50,981 nt of DNA. Origin: Maribacter sp. Its GTDB lineage: Bacteria > Bacteroidota > Bacteroidia > Flavobacteriales > Flavobacteriaceae. The translations under genes and the position numbers were made by a program. The stretch covers positions 1-50,981 of the forward strand of contig JAAETN010000196.1 of the NCBI GenBank assembly GCA_024228355.1. The letters run 5' to 3'. The notes under the pieces are model-generated. The model was not told where the DNA came from, made no database searches, and saw only the letters and a program-made list of their open reading frames with translations. Each line of letters opens with the position of its first letter. The first letter of the stretch is position 1. This document shows positions 14,297-18,725 of the stretch, in pieces.

Positions 14297-14360
14297 TTTT
14301 CTTCATTTTTTCCTTAATCTCCTGCAAACATAAATTACCCAAACTACCTTTGCGTATGTT
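14289..14360 (-). pseudogene. orphan copy of the argH 3' end
   Basis: Read on the minus strand this is 24 codons that match the C-terminus of argH: KGSLGNLCLQEIKEKM, followed here by KKIT and TGA, against RKVL and TAA in the intact gene. At DNA level 14304-14351 matches 14938-14985 with one difference in 48 bases. A two-base length difference and then GTATGTT shared follow. The remnant lies on the far side of the DUF559 unit from argH, overlaps the end of the pseudouridine synthase gene by eight bases, and has no start codon. It is best read as the original tail of argH, cut off when the unit arrived. Confidence 0.85.
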
Positions 14361-14365
14361 TTAGA

Positions 14366-14429
14366 GCTCCCCTCTTTGGTCAAAGAGGGGAATGAATCAT
14401 GCCCTTTAGCATGAGAAAGGGGAGTTTGA
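14366..14429. repeat. left hairpin pair of unit 1
   Basis: The first stem is CCCCTCTTTG/CAAAGAGGGG with a two-base loop (about 14369-14390). The second is CATGC (14398-14402) with GCATG (14409-14413). The block then ends GAAAGGGGAGTTTGA. GGGGAG at the end could instead pair with CTCCCC at the start, so two alternative folds are possible. The arrangement could also terminate transcription of the convergent pseudouridine synthase gene. Confidence 0.75.
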
Positions 14430-14494
14430 AAGCCTCAAGCTTGGCTAGATTTAACCAACTACATATTATATGAAAAATTAATTGGGTTCTCAAT

Positions 14495-14546
14495 CCCTCC
14501 GTCCTGATAGAATCGTCAGGACACCTCCCTTTGTCCAAAGGGAGGA
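14495..14546. repeat. right hairpin pair of unit 1
   Basis: The block CCCTCC is followed by stem GTCCTGA (14501-14507)/TCAGGAC (14516-14522), then by the 10-bp stem CCTCCCTTTG/CAAAGGGAGG (14524-14545, two-base loop). GGAGGG and CCTCCC are again able to pair in two ways. The last stem ends just seven bases from the DUF559 stop codon. Confidence 0.78.
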
Positions 14547-14552
14547 GCCATT

Positions 14553-14918
14553 TTAGGTCTTGAAGTTATCATTAATTTCCGACAATACTGATTTCAAATG
14601 TTCAAAAACCATTTTGTTTTCAAACCGAATTACCGTGTATCCCATACTTTGGAATACCCAAGTTCTTCTTTCGTCGTAAGCTTGTGCTTTTGGATTTTGA
14701 TGCACCTCTCCATCTAACTCCACTATTAATTTTTCGGAAGCACAATAAAAATCAACAATATATTCTCCAAAACTGTGCTGTTTTACAAACCTTTTGTCAT
14801 CCAGTTGTTTTGCCTTTACCTGTTTCCACAGAAAAGCCTCTGCAGGAGTCAGGTTAGATCGAAGTTCCATGCGGAAAGGTATTAGTTCTTTTTTGCTATG
14901 TATCCTACCACTTTGCAT
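14553..14918 (-). CDS. DUF559 (Vsr/restriction-endonuclease-fold) protein of unit 1
   Basis: A 121-residue DUF559 protein. Typical motifs are NLTPAEAFLW (residues about 23-32), FVKQHSFGEYIVDFYCASEKLIVELDG (about 44-70, with the Asp and the E-x-D pair expected of a PD-(D/E)xK/Vsr-like nuclease core) and VIRFENKMVFEH. DUF559 relates to very-short-patch-repair endonucleases and to some homing nucleases; activity here is inferred. The start codon lies four bases after the argH stop, so expression probably depends on the arginine operon. The protein is about two-thirds identical by eye to the copy at 18327-18725 from codon 5 onward; the first four codons differ. Confidence 0.88.
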   Translation of the reverse strand: MQSGRIHSKKELIPFRMELRSNLTPAEAFLWKQVKAKQLDDKRFVKQHSFGEYIVDFYCASEKLIVELDGEVHQNPKAQAYDERRTWVFQSMGYTVIRFENKMVFEHLKSVLSEINDNFKT

Positions 14919-14922
14919 TTAT

Positions 14923-16203
14923 TTATAAAACCTTTCTCATTTTCTCCTTAATCTCCTGCAAACATAAATTACCCAAACTACCTTTATGGGTATGTTCAAT
15001 ATCCCGCTTTGGAGTAAAGGAACCTTCATTGATTTCCTGCCCCATTTTTTTATAGGCATCCCTAAATGGCATGCCATTTTGTACTAATTCGTTCAAGGTG
15101 TCAACACTAAAAAGGTAATCGTATTTTGGGTCTTTCAAGATATTTTGGTTCACCCTTATTTCCTTCAAACTAAAGGTCAAAATCTCTAAACAAGCTTTTA
15201 AATCCTGGATTGCGGGAACAATGACTTCTTTGACCAATTGTAGATCTCGATGATAACCACTAGGAAGATTATTGGTAATCAACGTCAATTGATTGGGCAC
15301 CGCCTGAAGTTTATTGCATTTGGCTCGGACCAATTCAAAAACATCGGGATTCTTCTTATGGGGCATAATACTGCTACCTGTGGTCAATTCATCCGGGAAT
15401 GAAATGAAATCAAAATTTTGGCTCATGTATAGGCAAATATCCATTGCCATTTTGGATAAAGTATTCGCTATACTACTCATTCCAAAGGCTGTGGATTTTT
15501 CTATCTTACCACGCCCCATTTGGGCAGCTACCACATTGTATTTTAGAGTGTTGAAACCCATTTCCTTAGTAGTAAAGCTTCGGTCTATAGGGAAAGAACT
15601 CCCATAACCAGCAGCACTTCCCAGTGGATTTTGGTCCGCAACTTTGTATGCAGCATCGATAAAATATAAATCATCTATCAAACTTTCAGCGTAAGCAGAA
15701 AACCATAGTCCGAAAGATGACGGCATGGCTATTTGAAGATGTGTATAACCAGGGAGCAATATTTCTTTATGCTTTTCTGCCAAATCCATTAGTAAATTAA
15801 ATAGGGTAACAGTCTCTGTTTTTATTTCTTGCAACTCACTTTTCAAATATAGATGCATAGCAACCAGTACCTGGTCATTTCTAGATCGTGCCGTATGTAT
15901 TTTTTTACCTGTGTCCCCTATTTTTTCAGTAAGTAAAAACTCGATTTTGGAATGCATATCCTCAAAAGCATCCTCAATGGTGAACGAACCAGCTTCAATG
16001 TCCTTTGCAATAGTGTCTAATTCTTTGACTAGGGAAATTGTCTCATCATTGGTCAGTATTCCAATTTTGCCTAACATTTTTGCATGGGCCTTGGAAGCAA
16101 TTACATCATACTTTGCCAAGAGTAAGTCTAGTTCCCTATCATTACCAACCGTAAAATGATCTATTTTTTGATCTGTACTGAATCCTTTATCCCAGAGTTT
16201 CAT
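14923..16203 (-). CDS. argH: argininosuccinate lyase
   Basis: A 426-residue fumarase/aspartase-superfamily enzyme, slightly shorter than the usual 450-460. Marks are LLLAKYDVIASKAHAKML at the N-terminus, KIHTARSRNDQVLVAMHLYL (substrate-binding), LPGYTHLQIAMPSSFGLW, NPLGSAAGYGSSFPIDR and the signature TGSSIMPHKKNPDVFE, which carries the catalytic loop. It splits argininosuccinate into arginine and fumarate, the last step of arginine synthesis. It is the final biosynthetic gene of the operon. Its last 20-odd codons are duplicated at 14289-14360, so the present C-terminus (RKVL) may have arrived with the adjacent DUF559 unit. A 139-base gap with a repeat separates it from argE. Confidence 0.95.
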   Translation of the reverse strand: MKLWDKGFSTDQKIDHFTVGNDRELDLLLAKYDVIASKAHAKMLGKIGILTNDETISLVKELDTIAKDIEAGSFTIEDAFEDMHSKIEFLLTEKIGDTGKKIHTARSRNDQVLVAMHLYLKSELQEIKTETVTLFNLLMDLAEKHKEILLPGYTHLQIAMPSSFGLWFSAYAESLIDDLYFIDAAYKVADQNPLGSAAGYGSSFPIDRSFTTKEMGFNTLKYNVVAAQMGRGKIEKSTAFGMSSIANTLSKMAMDICLYMSQNFDFISFPDELTTGSSIMPHKKNPDVFELVRAKCNKLQAVPNQLTLITNNLPSGYHRDLQLVKEVIVPAIQDLKACLEILTFSLKEIRVNQNILKDPKYDYLFSVDTLNELVQNGMPFRDAYKKMGQEINEGSFTPKRDIEHTHKGSLGNLCLQEIKEKMRKVL

Positions 16204-16217
16204 AATTTTTTCTTTTT

Positions 16218-16244
16218 GTCATTCCTGCATAGGCAGGAATCTAT
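16218..16244. repeat. REP-like hairpin repeat (GTCATTCCTG family)
   Basis: ATTCCTGC and GCAGGAAT form an 8-bp stem with a four-base loop (16221-16240) inside the gap between argE and argH. A degenerate relative is at 13397-13423. Such TCATTCCTG...CAGGAAT palindromes are common as dispersed intergenic repeats; here the copy could also stabilise or trim the operon mRNA. Confidence 0.65.
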
Positions 16245-16264
16245 TTTTATTACACTTCTAAAGA

Positions 16265-16310
16265 GCTTCGACTGCCGTGCCCGAGGCTGGCGGGCGTTTA
16301 ACATGACACG
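16265..16310. repeat. GC-rich imperfect palindrome between argE and argH
   Basis: A locally GC-rich stretch contains GCCCG and CGGGC around AGGCTGG, then GCGTTTAACATGACACGC. Base composition differs sharply from the AT-rich surroundings. It looks like a second, unrelated intergenic repeat next to the hairpin at 16218, but no second copy is visible in this window, so its nature is uncertain. Confidence 0.3.
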
Positions 16311-16342
16311 CTCAGTATGCCATATTTTGTTCAATAGAATTA

Positions 16343-17416
16343 TTATTCCAATATAAATCCACCTACTATTTTCATATACAAATCTATCCCCTCTTCAATC
16401 TCATTTATATAAATATATTCGTCGGCAGAGTGGGACCTTGTACTATCTCCGGGCCCTAATTTCATCGATTGACAAGTCAGGGCAGCCTGGTCCGATAATG
16501 TTGGGGAGCCATAAGTTTCCCGCCCTAAGGTAACACCGGATTGTACCAAAGGATGGTTATTTTCGATTGAGGACGAATTTAATCGCAATGAACGCTCCTG
16601 TAGTTCACAGGGTGCTTCATTTTTTAAAATATCGGCCACTTCTTTATTGCTATACAGGTCGTTTACTCGGACATCGATAACCAAATCAGTATGGGCGGGT
16701 ACCACATTGTGTTGGCTCCCAGCATTGATTTGTGTTACGGTTAGTTTAACCGCTCCTAATGCATCCGATACTTTTTCAAACTTATAATTCTTGAACCAAT
16801 CAAGCACCTGAATGGTATTGTAAATGGAATTATCCTCATTTGGATGTGCAGCATGTGACGGAGTGCCTTTAACCACGGCATCGAAAACCACTAATCCTTT
16901 TTCAGCAATGGCTAATTGCATCAACGTAGGTTCTCCAACAATGGCCACATCAATTTTTGGCAAAATTGGAAGTAAGGCCCTTAGGCTTTTTGGTCCGGCA
17001 TTCTCTTCTTCTGCAGAAGCCACCATTAGTAGGTTATATGTCAAATCTGCTAAATGGTAGTAATGTGTAAATGTTGCCATTAATGACACTAAGGCGCCGC
17101 CGGCATCATTGCTGCCTAATCCATATAATTTCCCATCCTCAATTTGTGGATCAAAAGGGTCCCGAGTATAGGCTTTATTAGGTCTCACGGTATCATGGTG
17201 CGAGTTCAATAAAAGTGTTGGCTTTGTATCATCCCAATATTTGTTCTTGGCAAAAACATTATTGTTTTCCCGTTCATAGGTAATGTTAAAAGCTTTGAAC
17301 CAGGCTTCAATGGCTTCAGCCGTATGGTGTTCTTCCCCGGAAAATGATTGAATGGCGATGAGTTCCTGTAATAATCCAATAGCCTTGTCTGTAAGCAATT
17401 TTTGATCCATCTTCAT
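16343..17416 (-). CDS. argE: acetylornithine deacetylase (M20 family)
   Basis: A 357-residue M20 metallopeptidase-family enzyme. Metal-binding and catalytic motifs are LLLNSHHDTVRP (His and Asp), YGLGSNDAGGALVSLMA (bridging Asp), ASAEEENAGPKSL (catalytic and metal Glu) and IVGEPTLMQLAIAEKGLV. A late SDQAALTCQSMKLGPGDSTRSHSADEYI supplies the last His ligand. It removes the acyl group from N-acetylornithine (or N-acetylcitrulline in the carbamoyltransferase variant of the pathway used here). In an operon with an acetylornithine carbamoyltransferase, acetylcitrulline is the more likely substrate. The start ATG overlaps the argB stop (ATGA). No argJ is seen, so the acyl group is not recycled within this cluster. 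Confidence 0.9.
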   Translation of the reverse strand: MKMDQKLLTDKAIGLLQELIAIQSFSGEEHHTAEAIEAWFKAFNITYERENNNVFAKNKYWDDTKPTLLLNSHHDTVRPNKAYTRDPFDPQIEDGKLYGLGSNDAGGALVSLMATFTHYYHLADLTYNLLMVASAEEENAGPKSLRALLPILPKIDVAIVGEPTLMQLAIAEKGLVVFDAVVKGTPSHAAHPNEDNSIYNTIQVLDWFKNYKFEKVSDALGAVKLTVTQINAGSQHNVVPAHTDLVIDVRVNDLYSNKEVADILKNEAPCELQERSLRLNSSSIENNHPLVQSGVTLGRETYGSPTLSDQAALTCQSMKLGPGDSTRSHSADEYIYINEIEEGIDLYMKIVGGFILE

Positions 17417-18192
17417 AAGGTTAATGTTGTATATAAATTTGATCCTGTCTCGAGCATTGATATGTTGCCGATACAGACTTTATCGACATTTTGTTGTAAT
17501 GCATGAAAACAATTCTGCATTTTTGGCAACATACCGTCAGCAATAATGTTCTGTCCTAATAAGTCATTATAACTTTTAGTATCAATATGTTTTATAACCG
17601 ATTCATCATTTTCTACATCCTGCAATACCCCTTTCTTTTCGAAACAATAATATAGAGTGGTTTCATATGTATGACTCATCCCTATGGCTAGTTCCGAAGC
17701 AATGGTATCTGCATTGGTATTCAATAATTGACCCTTACCGTCATGCGAAATTGCACAAAAGACCGGTATTAAATTAGCGCCAACTAAAGTATGAATAAGG
17801 TCAGAGTTAATTCCGTCAATATCACCAACAAATCCGAAATCAATTTCTTTTACAGGTCTTTTATGGGCCTGTATGGCATTGCCGTCTGCCCCACTAAGTC
17901 CAATGGCATTTGTTCCCAAAGCCTGTAATTTGGCCACAACATTCTTGTTTGTGAGTCCGCCGTATACCATGGTAATAACTTCAAGACTCTTGATGTCCGT
18001 TATGCGCCTACCATTGGTCATTCTTGATTCAATGCCCAATTTTGCGCTCAATTTTGTGGCCAATTTACCACCTCCATGCACAAGAATTTTAGGTTCTTCC
18101 AATTTGGAAAAATTCAAAAGAAATTGGTCAAACTCAATTTCGTTTTCCAAGACATTTCCACCGATTTTTACTATGGACAGTTTTTGTTTCAT
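17413..18192 (-). CDS. argB: acetylglutamate kinase
   Basis: A 259-residue amino-acid kinase-fold protein. Nucleotide and substrate motifs are IVKIGGNVLEN (residues about 6-16), KILVHGGGKLATKLSAKLGIESRMTNGRRIT, ALGTNAIGLSGADGNAIQA and the late LLNTNADTIASELAIGM. It phosphorylates N-acetylglutamate (or the acyl analogue used in this lineage). Its length and lack of an N-terminal extension suggest the short ArgB type, so feedback inhibition by arginine is not assured. Its start lies just beyond unit 2 (left hairpins at 18212-18271), so the DUF559 unit separates it from the upstream carbamoyltransferase gene. It overlaps argE by four bases. Confidence 0.94.
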   Translation of the reverse strand: MKQKLSIVKIGGNVLENEIEFDQFLLNFSKLEEPKILVHGGGKLATKLSAKLGIESRMTNGRRITDIKSLEVITMVYGGLTNKNVVAKLQALGTNAIGLSGADGNAIQAHKRPVKEIDFGFVGDIDGINSDLIHTLVGANLIPVFCAISHDGKGQLLNTNADTIASELAIGMSHTYETTLYYCFEKKGVLQDVENDESVIKHIDTKSYNDLLGQNIIADGMLPKMQNCFHALQQNVDKVCIGNISMLETGSNLYTTLTL

Positions 18193-18211
18193 TTGTTTTA
18201 CAATACTTTTT

Positions 18212-18271
18212 GCTCCCCTCTATATTAAAGAGGGGAATGAATTCCGATTTATCGGAAGAAAGGGGAGTTTG
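18212..18271. repeat. left hairpin pair of unit 2
   Basis: CCCCTCT and AGAGGGG form the outer stem. TCCGAT (18243-18248) and ATCGGA (18251-18256) form the second stem, at the same place as CATGC/GCATG in unit 1 but with a different sequence. It ends GAAAGGGGAGTTTGA as in unit 1. The changes on both arms keep the pairing. Confidence 0.75.
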
Positions 18272-18314
18272 ATAAGCCGTATTTTTTCTTTTTATTTTGG
18301 CTTGGGATTATAAA

Positions 18315-18361
18315 CCCTCCGTCTAACTATGGTTCGACACCTCCCTTTAGATAAAGGGAGG
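18315..18361. repeat. right hairpin pair of unit 2
   Basis: CCCTCC is followed by GTCTAAC (18321-18327)/GTTCGAC (18332-18338), one mismatch, and the 10-bp stem CCTCCCTTTA/TAAAGGGAGG (18340-18361). Against unit 1 the last pair of this stem is A-T instead of G-C, a compensatory change. The hairpin lies inside the end of the DUF559 reading frame in this copy. Confidence 0.78.
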
Positions 18362-18725
18362 AACCTTTAAAATTTTCTTTTATTTCCTTTAGTACAGATG
18401 GTAGATTGTCAAACACTTTTTTGTTTTCAAACCTTAATACTGTAAACCCCATTTTATTTAAAAAAGAGGTTCTTTTTTCATCAAATTCTTGGGCTGTAGC
18501 ATTGTTATCTACTTCTCCATCCAATTCAATTATTAATTTTTCTGAAGCACAATAAAAATCTACAATATAATTTTTGATGCTATGCTGCTTGGTAAATCTT
18601 TTATTGTCAAGTTTTCTAGCTTTTGAATAAGTCCATAAAAAGGCCTCAGCAGGAGTTAAATTGTTCCTAAGTTCTTTTCTAAAAGCCGTTAATTCTTTTT
18701 TCGTATGAATCCTTTCTTTATTCAT
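18327..18725 (-). CDS. DUF559 (Vsr/restriction-endonuclease-fold) protein of unit 2
   Basis: A 132-residue homologue of the protein at 14553-14918, with NLTPAEAFLW, KQHSIKNYIVDFYCASEK, LIIELDGEVD and VLRFENKKVFDN at the same positions, so the candidate nuclease residues are kept. The frame runs past the point where unit 1 stops: the last residues (GSSLYLKGGVEP) are translated from the right hairpin, ending inside it. The start ATG overlaps the carbamoyltransferase stop by four bases (ATGA), so translation is probably coupled. Activity is inferred from the family. No sign of decay is visible. Confidence 0.87.
   Translation of the reverse strand: MNKERIHTKKELTAFRKELRNNLTPAEAFLWTYSKARKLDNKRFTKQHSIKNYIVDFYCASEKLIIELDGEVDNNATAQEFDEKRTSFLNKMGFTVLRFENKKVFDNLPSVLKEIKENFKGSSLYLKGGVEP

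Follow-up and report, generated by a model that had tools for sequence, protein, structure and literature searches.

The window analysed here is a stretch of 50,981 nucleotides (nt) from Maribacter sp. (contig JAAETN010000196.1), and it raises the question of why the arginine operon on its minus strand (argH, argE, argB, argF) is interrupted twice, each time by one unit with a DUF559 gene and hairpin-forming DNA. Our analysis indicates that both units are probably copies of one mobile element, in which a DUF559 nuclease is combined with its own palindromic modules and spreads by the mechanism proposed below. The element looks like a system of repetitive extragenic palindromic (REP) sequences and REP-associated tyrosine transposases (RAYTs), run in this case by an unrelated, homing-endonuclease-like enzyme. 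The initial annotation of this DNA had proposed such a REP/RAYT-like element driven by a DUF559 nuclease, and most of the tests it named came out in its favour. It had also called the element a candidate undescribed one, in line with which we found no earlier description of a DUF559-palindrome element in our searches of the open-licence literature. Apparently, this is a widespread and undescribed kind of mobile DNA.

Pfam matches and coordinates confirm that two units of the same order lie on the same strand within one operon. Read on its own strand, each unit runs from the DUF559 gene through a hairpin pair (R module) and an AT-rich spacer to an inverted hairpin pair (L module); the names R and L are our own, and the hairpins of a module are labelled HP1 and HP2. 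Both DUF559 genes are co-directional with the arg genes. Among the latter, argH is a lyase by Pfam, and argE, argB and argF are what we take the remaining genes to be from their sequence and order. The features of the two units are as follows.

14553-14918, minus strand: DUF559 (Vsr/EDxHD-like) nuclease gene of unit 1, 121 amino acids (aa), PF04480 at E 8.2e-32
14495-14545, minus strand: R module of unit 1, with HP1 at 14524-14545, HP2 at 14501-14522 and the tail CCCTCC/GGAGGG at 14495-14500
14433-14494, minus strand: AT-rich spacer of unit 1
14364-14432, plus strand: L module of unit 1, with HP1 at 14369-14390, HP2 at 14397-14414 and the tail GGGGAG at 14419-14424
14298-14360, minus strand: distal copy of the argH 3' end at unit 1, target-duplication-like
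14933-14996, minus strand: proximal copy of the argH 3' end stretch, inside argH (14923-16203)
18327-18725, minus strand: DUF559 nuclease gene of unit 2, 132 aa, between argF and argB, PF04480 at E 2.4e-32
18315-18361, minus strand: R module of unit 2, with HP1 at 18340-18361, HP2 at 18321-18338 (one mismatch) and the tail at 18315-18319
18276-18314, minus strand: spacer of unit 2
18210-18275, plus strand: L module of unit 2

A stretch of about 64 nt from the 3' end of argH occurs twice, once on each side of unit 1, a feature missing from the initial annotation. The outer blocks that it called conserved are found in both units. Its inner stems pair in both units overall, except that the R stem GTCTAAC/GTTCGAC of unit 2 carries one mismatch, and the proposed tenth pair of the last stem has to be given up, as it would leave a 2-nt loop and folding gives nine pairs. 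The covariance model (R1) scores the L modules of units 1 and 2 at 78.7 and 78.4 bits, both being training sequences. The only known RNA family found in the window is a tRNA (Rfam, gathering thresholds).

Comparison among relatives shows covariation of the inner stems, which agrees with the earlier claim that the paired changes keep the fold and not the sequence. In nine aligned L modules from different loci, 96.8% of cells pair (84.5% in shuffles), and changes on both sides occur in 18 cells, compared with 4.4 in shuffles, none of 500 of which reaches 18. Six pairs are changed on both sides, compared with 3.0 in shuffles, and the further pair types in these modules are unexceptional (75 of 500 shuffles). 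Sliding the partner by 1-3 columns lowers the pairing to 51-68%. For HP2, 93 of 100 inner-stem positions in 20 distinct variants are Watson-Crick pairs, compared with 55 for re-dealt arms (0/2000). Folding the sequences one at a time gives modest z-scores for L (-1.6 to -2.6) and stronger ones for R (-2.7 to -4.0); the comparative evidence is the stronger of the two.

Hairpins are concentrated around DUF559 genes of relatives as well. Perfect hairpins of at least 7 bp were counted around 74 solo DUF559 loci, and their density within 100 nt of the gene is 3.9/kb upstream and 5.7/kb downstream, compared with 0.18/kb and 0.07/kb at 900-1300 nt, a near-gene excess of about 20-80-fold. Flanks were long enough at 66 of these loci for a Mantel test, in which loci with more similar nucleases share more flank 8-mers (r=0.255, 0 of 1000 permutations); the same test with distant flanks gives r=-0.042. 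The sequence of the flanking palindromes tracks that of the nuclease. In the subgroup of the window genes, sampled as the best 80 loci among the matches listed (titled records), a recognisable module lies within 350 nt of the gene at 67 loci, and modules occur in 104 of 156 adjacent flanking windows versus 3 of 304 distant ones. The upstream neighbour, found at 77 of these loci, is on the same strand in 59 cases and on the opposite strand in 18. Moreover, direct repeats (score at least 25) bracket the gene at 41 of 75 loci, compared with 1 of 75 for inverted repeats and 3 of 148 for shifted controls. Some of these direct repeats are tandem gene copies (e.g. L242); once the five loci where another DUF559 frame lies no more than 700 nt away are removed, the counts are 37/70 direct, 1/70 inverted and 3/139 controls. 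The regular expressions and hairpin thresholds were set by us, and the controls share loci with the tests.

Within the genus, units are present in some species and absent from others at the same loci, which is the difference between close relatives that had been anticipated for a mobile element. We compared 12 genomes (G000 to G011). Between argF and argB, G000 carries a unit, and the two genes abut or overlap in G005, G006, G007, G009 and G010. In G001 a short frame there resembles, by eye, only the start of a DUF559 gene; G002 and G004, where this site is uncovered, are left out of the comparison. Between argE and argH, a unit is present in G011 alone among the 11 genomes covered. At the argH-rluB site, G000 and G004 (the latter by eye) have a unit with a duplicated argH end, and in G009 and G011 argH runs straight into rluB with no unit; this comparison consists of these four genomes, the stretch examined in the other eight holding no rluB. 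The same gaps also contain other genes. In the argF-argB gap of G003, G008 and G011, another gene, short-chain dehydrogenase-like by eye, is in the place of unit 2. The argE-argH gap of G010 contains a 118-aa frame (L172:3557-3913), presumably of the four-helix-bundle/S23 family by its look, and similar DNA is found in G005 and G007. The arg operon looks like a hot spot for insertions.

The palindromes are also found away from the gene. The exact L pattern occurs 25 times in 9 of 199 genomes of the family, in which the reversed-pattern control has no occurrence. A DUF559 frame is found at 8 of the 25 loci and at none of the other 17, within a stretch of up to about 1.5 kb on each side; for one of these 17, in G187, a DUF559 gene is about 1.6 kb away. 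Window-type DUF559 is present in 23 genomes, 22 with an intact gene and one with a broken frame (G065). Eight of these 23 genomes contain the exact L module versus 1 of 176 genomes without the gene (p = 8e-8, Fisher test), and leaving the broken gene out gives 7 of 22 versus 2 of 177 (p = 2e-6). Hairpins with no link to DUF559, named in the initial annotation as evidence against its own proposal, are thus not the pattern seen here. Covariance-model matches behave similarly, again as proposed: matches above 35 bits occur in 4 of the 12 genus genomes, which are exactly those with an intact window-type gene, and in none of the other eight. Two of the four, G000 and G011, supplied training sequences, and G004 and G009 supplied none; all three matches of G009 are on another contig than its DUF559 gene. 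Of 14 chosen genomes, the seven that carry the gene yield 2-30 matches each at E up to 0.01, and training sequences came from three of these seven; the six without it yield 0-1 weak matches, and the last, G050, has no gene match but one strong site. Both covariance-model surveys scored up to 150 candidates per genome. By eye, several gene-less units of G121 and G009 consist of two modules around a spacer, with the tails pointing outward. The suggestion of REP-like dispersed copies without the gene therefore holds in other genomes, by the 17 gene-less loci above, but not in the window's own genome, where we found no strong gene-less L copy and only weak matches of 19-33 bits. Tandem arrays of L modules with regular spacing were also seen, at G154:C7:4122-5184 (about 200 nt) and G063:C4:347905-348667 (about 120-150 nt).

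DUF559 also occurs in frame inside conserved enzymes. One strong copy in the window's genome is located within recG, in an 846-aa frame in which hairpin DNA is translated at both borders. In relatives, RecG, LeuRS and MetH contain the domain internally, whereas HemD, HisD and a pyridoxal phosphate (PLP)-dependent enzyme are joined to it at one end in a common open frame and may be separate genes read in one frame; Pfam confirms one example of each. In the cyanobacterium Pseudanabaena, DUF559 is in one frame with a DNA methylase (Pfam). The in-frame insertions are at the same sites across genera. Pfam detects no Hint splicing or intein domain in seven fusions (E up to 0.001), and an intein reading of the fusions was discarded on this ground.

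The recG insertion site is located between what we take to be helicase motifs. Empty alleles read HKNE[FVIM]PPHILVMTATP and filled alleles HKG-insert-PPHILVMTATP; palindromes mark the ends of the insertion, and empty alleles are without palindromes there. Among the genus genomes, 11 have recG, five filled and six empty (G002 being called empty from its match table), and one has no recG match. In the three pairs formed by G000, G009 and G011, the inserts are 94-96% identical, with a synonymous divergence (dS) of 0.12-0.20 and a ratio of nonsynonymous to synonymous divergence (dN/dS) of 0.12-0.14, whereas identity in the flanks (900 nt before, 750 nt after) is 77-82%, and their dS is saturated or exceeds 2.6. 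Fourfold sites give 0.80-0.95 in the insert versus 0.34-0.38 in the flanks of the same pairs. The recG insert therefore travelled between species on its own, without its flanks, and entered this one site by lateral transfer on at least one occasion. The DUF559 protein is more alike than both flanks in 1 of 91 leuS pairs, 0 of 10 metH pairs and 2 of 45 recG pairs. The leuS insert at L027 (G013) has a very long tree branch, and by eye its nuclease residues are apparently lost, with the frame open. Such decay would be expected of an inactive insert caught in a gene that the cell needs.

The protein itself resembles a homing endonuclease. In the two window proteins Pfam finds DUF559 and the nuclease relative MTES_1575 and nothing else, with both PF04480 matches above the curated cut-off and no match to an HUH tyrosine transposase. 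The unit 1 protein keeps the conserved residues D56, E67, D69 and H73; in an alignment of 11 sequences the first three are invariant and the His is near-invariant. Its AlphaFold model (pLDDT 85.8) matches a Neisseria protein (PDB 3hrl, TMt 0.86) and the I-Bth0305I homing endonuclease domain (PDB 3r3p, TMt 0.75), and more weakly E. coli Vsr (TMt 0.46). A sequence profile match to I-Bth0305I (E 2.7e-6) agrees with the fold. The PF04480 matches and this likeness are in line with the initial assignment of the associated protein as a Vsr/PD-(D/E)xK-like DUF559 nuclease. The window's genome has four strong DUF559 matches and one weak match. A tree of 110 DUF559 domains, built on 101 columns and with many open forks, places the window genes in a group of 28 solo genes; one branch sets the recG group (10) apart from all others, and another does so for the hemD group (6).

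Similar arrangements are found in other phyla. From 31 matching records of a plasmid collection we obtained 15 DUF559 loci, of cyanobacteria, Alpha-, Beta- and Gammaproteobacteria and Deinococcus. Hairpins occur at 4.74/kb near the gene versus 0.83/kb farther away, and on both sides at 9 of the 15 loci; at two loci this finder detects no hairpins. One Deinococcus copy (L301) has, by eye, long terminal inverted repeats. In Legionella pneumophila, PMC12308824 reports mutation and recombination hotspots at three repeated segments that carry a transposase and a DUF559 gene. This fits DUF559 repeats being active or recombining.

These observations can be combined in a proposed mechanism. A module consists of HP1, of HP2, whose sequence drifts while its pairing is kept, and of a G-rich tail that could also pair with HP1. 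Two inverted modules form a unit similar to a bacterial interspersed mosaic element (BIME), either flanking the gene, often as long direct repeats, or standing alone as a non-autonomous unit. The nuclease may cut or nick near its cognate hairpins, perhaps in their extruded or single-stranded form, as well as at recipient sites, into which repair would then copy the cassette. Surviving insertions would mostly be located behind a same-strand gene or in frame inside one, and a nuclease placed in this way could spread its insertion into empty alleles by homing. The gene-less units would depend on the DUF559 enzyme for their spread, much as REPs are believed to depend on RAYTs.

Several points weigh against this explanation. 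Transposition and an action of the nuclease on hairpins are what we infer; neither transposition nor cleavage was observed. Both window units carry modules on the downstream side of the gene alone, whereas modules on both sides are the common layout, and no convincing direct repeat flanks unit 2. In the unit 2 protein, Asp replaces the near-invariant His (ELDGEVDN), and given this lost residue the nuclease may be inactive. Among the relatives, no module was found by regular expression at 13 of the 80 window-subgroup loci, and a stricter finder detects none at 6 of 28. The spacers of the G121 gene-less units look unrelated by eye, which simple whole-unit copying leaves unexplained. The homing signature is clear in 3 of 10 recG pairs of the genus, the other seven being without contrast, and leuS (46 pairs) and metH (6 pairs) have no clear fourfold-site excess at at least 12 sites per pair, where counts are small. 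Finally, G050 has a strong module site and no DUF559 match at E 1e-12.

This last genome equally speaks for the palindromes being the primary selfish repeats, moved by another enzyme, with DUF559 as a separate homing nuclease that inserts into or targets them. Gene-less units outnumber gene-bearing ones in some genomes, and in G030 the DUF559 gene in metH has a copy of one 102-nt palindromic unit on either side, as insertion into an existing unit predicts. We nevertheless regard this arrangement as unlikely: the nuclease and its flanking palindromes co-vary in sequence, the module depends on window-type DUF559 both across the family and within the genus, and the recG palindromes mark the ends of the insertion, at a place where empty alleles show no palindrome. 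It is very doubtful, too, that the in-frame DUF559 of RecG, LeuRS and MetH is a domesticated host factor kept for host benefit. Although the shared insertion sites across genera and the purifying selection on the recG insert would agree with domestication, such selection is equally expected for a homing gene, the presence in recG is patchy inside one genus, and the L027 copy of leuS looks decayed.

Hairpins downstream of genes can terminate or stabilise transcripts, and DUF559 could on this basis be an ordinary repair- or restriction-type nuclease accompanied by terminators or mRNA stabilisers with no role in mobility. This appears extremely improbable, as it is unfit to account for two-sided hairpins, long direct repeats and hairpins translated within coding genes, or for gene-less copies, presence and absence at orthologous sites and the lateral transfer in recG. 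The idea that the hairpins are terminators only was rejected, since they flank the nuclease gene on each side, are found within coding genes and also occur at a distance from DUF559. The explanation we prefer is that a DUF559 nuclease and its own palindromes form one mobile element. The recG, leuS and metH insertions are cases of a non-splicing, homing-type insert in housekeeping enzymes. Such inserts could explain odd domain fusions, for example that of DUF559 with a SPOUT methyltransferase, which is recorded in PMC1829167. DUF559 is still listed in Pfam as a domain of unknown function, and its pairing with palindromes may explain the spread of a puzzling class of bacterial palindromic repeats.

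Compared with REP/BIME sequences and their RAYTs (TnpA-REP, 'REPtrons'), the element likewise combines a small nuclease gene with short palindromes on its flanks, and it also shows inverted dimers, dispersed gene-less copies (in relatives) and a repeat sequence that co-varies with the nuclease. It differs in having a DUF559 PD-(D/E)xK/Vsr-like enzyme and not a tyrosine transposase, and in that each module has two hairpins and a tail, direct repeats can be long and housekeeping genes can carry the insertion in frame. The GTAG tag of REPtrons is not enriched, being found before hairpins in 9 of 156 adjacent versus 18 of 304 distant flanking windows. The element shares with I-Bth0305I, an EDxHD homing endonuclease, the sequence profile, the fold and the homing-like spread seen in recG. 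However, 3r3p is listed in the PDB as a mobile intron protein, whereas we saw no self-splicing element and the insert keeps the protein frame. As with inteins, a homing-type nuclease is placed in frame inside conserved enzymes; unlike inteins, the seven fusions have no splicing domain by Pfam, and the hairpin DNA at the borders is translated.

Another close group of repeats is that of the CGTC-REPs. According to Di Nocera 2013 (PMC3733652), these consist of the tag CGTC, a stem of 8-9 bp and a CCA tail; inverted dimers are frequent, some copies lie inside genes, repair genes included, and Rickettsia RPE-4/RPE-6 and Neisseria dRS3 belong to the group. REP-like palindromes are found in many bacterial genomes, and an enzyme had been proposed only for the GTAG type; for the CGTC type, that paper reports no dedicated transposase. 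In our data, CGTC followed by a hairpin and CCA/CAC occurs near window-type DUF559 in 39 of 156 flanking windows versus 2 of 304 far ones (28 of 80 loci), and a slightly wider pattern in 51 of 156 versus 3 of 304 (36 of 80 loci); five other tags give 0-3 loci in the same test. The window's own two units do not have this pattern. Apart from the DUF559 units, positions 16217-16248 between argE and argH hold a palindrome, TGTCATTCC...GGAATCTA, that resembles CGTC-type REPs. Among the 15 loci of other phyla, CGTC-hairpin-CCA is clear only in Novosphingobium (L303). The CGTC tag was rejected as a universal DUF559 feature, being found in 2 of 92 windows for other solo DUF559 subgroups.

Because the CGTC pattern is enriched beside window-type DUF559, the nuclease is a candidate enzyme for at least part of the CGTC-REP superfamily, and on sequence grounds this co-location would argue against CGTC-REPs being without a dedicated enzyme. 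A cognate nuclease makes the question of the CGTC-REP enzyme directly testable. More tentatively, DUF559 might represent a new class, across phyla, of palindrome-bounded homing nucleases, placed between genes and in frame in housekeeping enzymes without splicing, and be the missing mobilising enzyme of CGTC-REPs, possibly including the Rickettsia palindromic elements and Neisseria dRS3. Modules of relatives often resemble CGTC-REPs in the CGTC tag, the hairpin and the CCA/CAC tail, and the two also have inverted dimers and intragenic units, in part within DNA-repair genes, in common, whereas, unlike in CGTC-REPs as described in PMC3733652, a nuclease gene here adjoins the palindromes.

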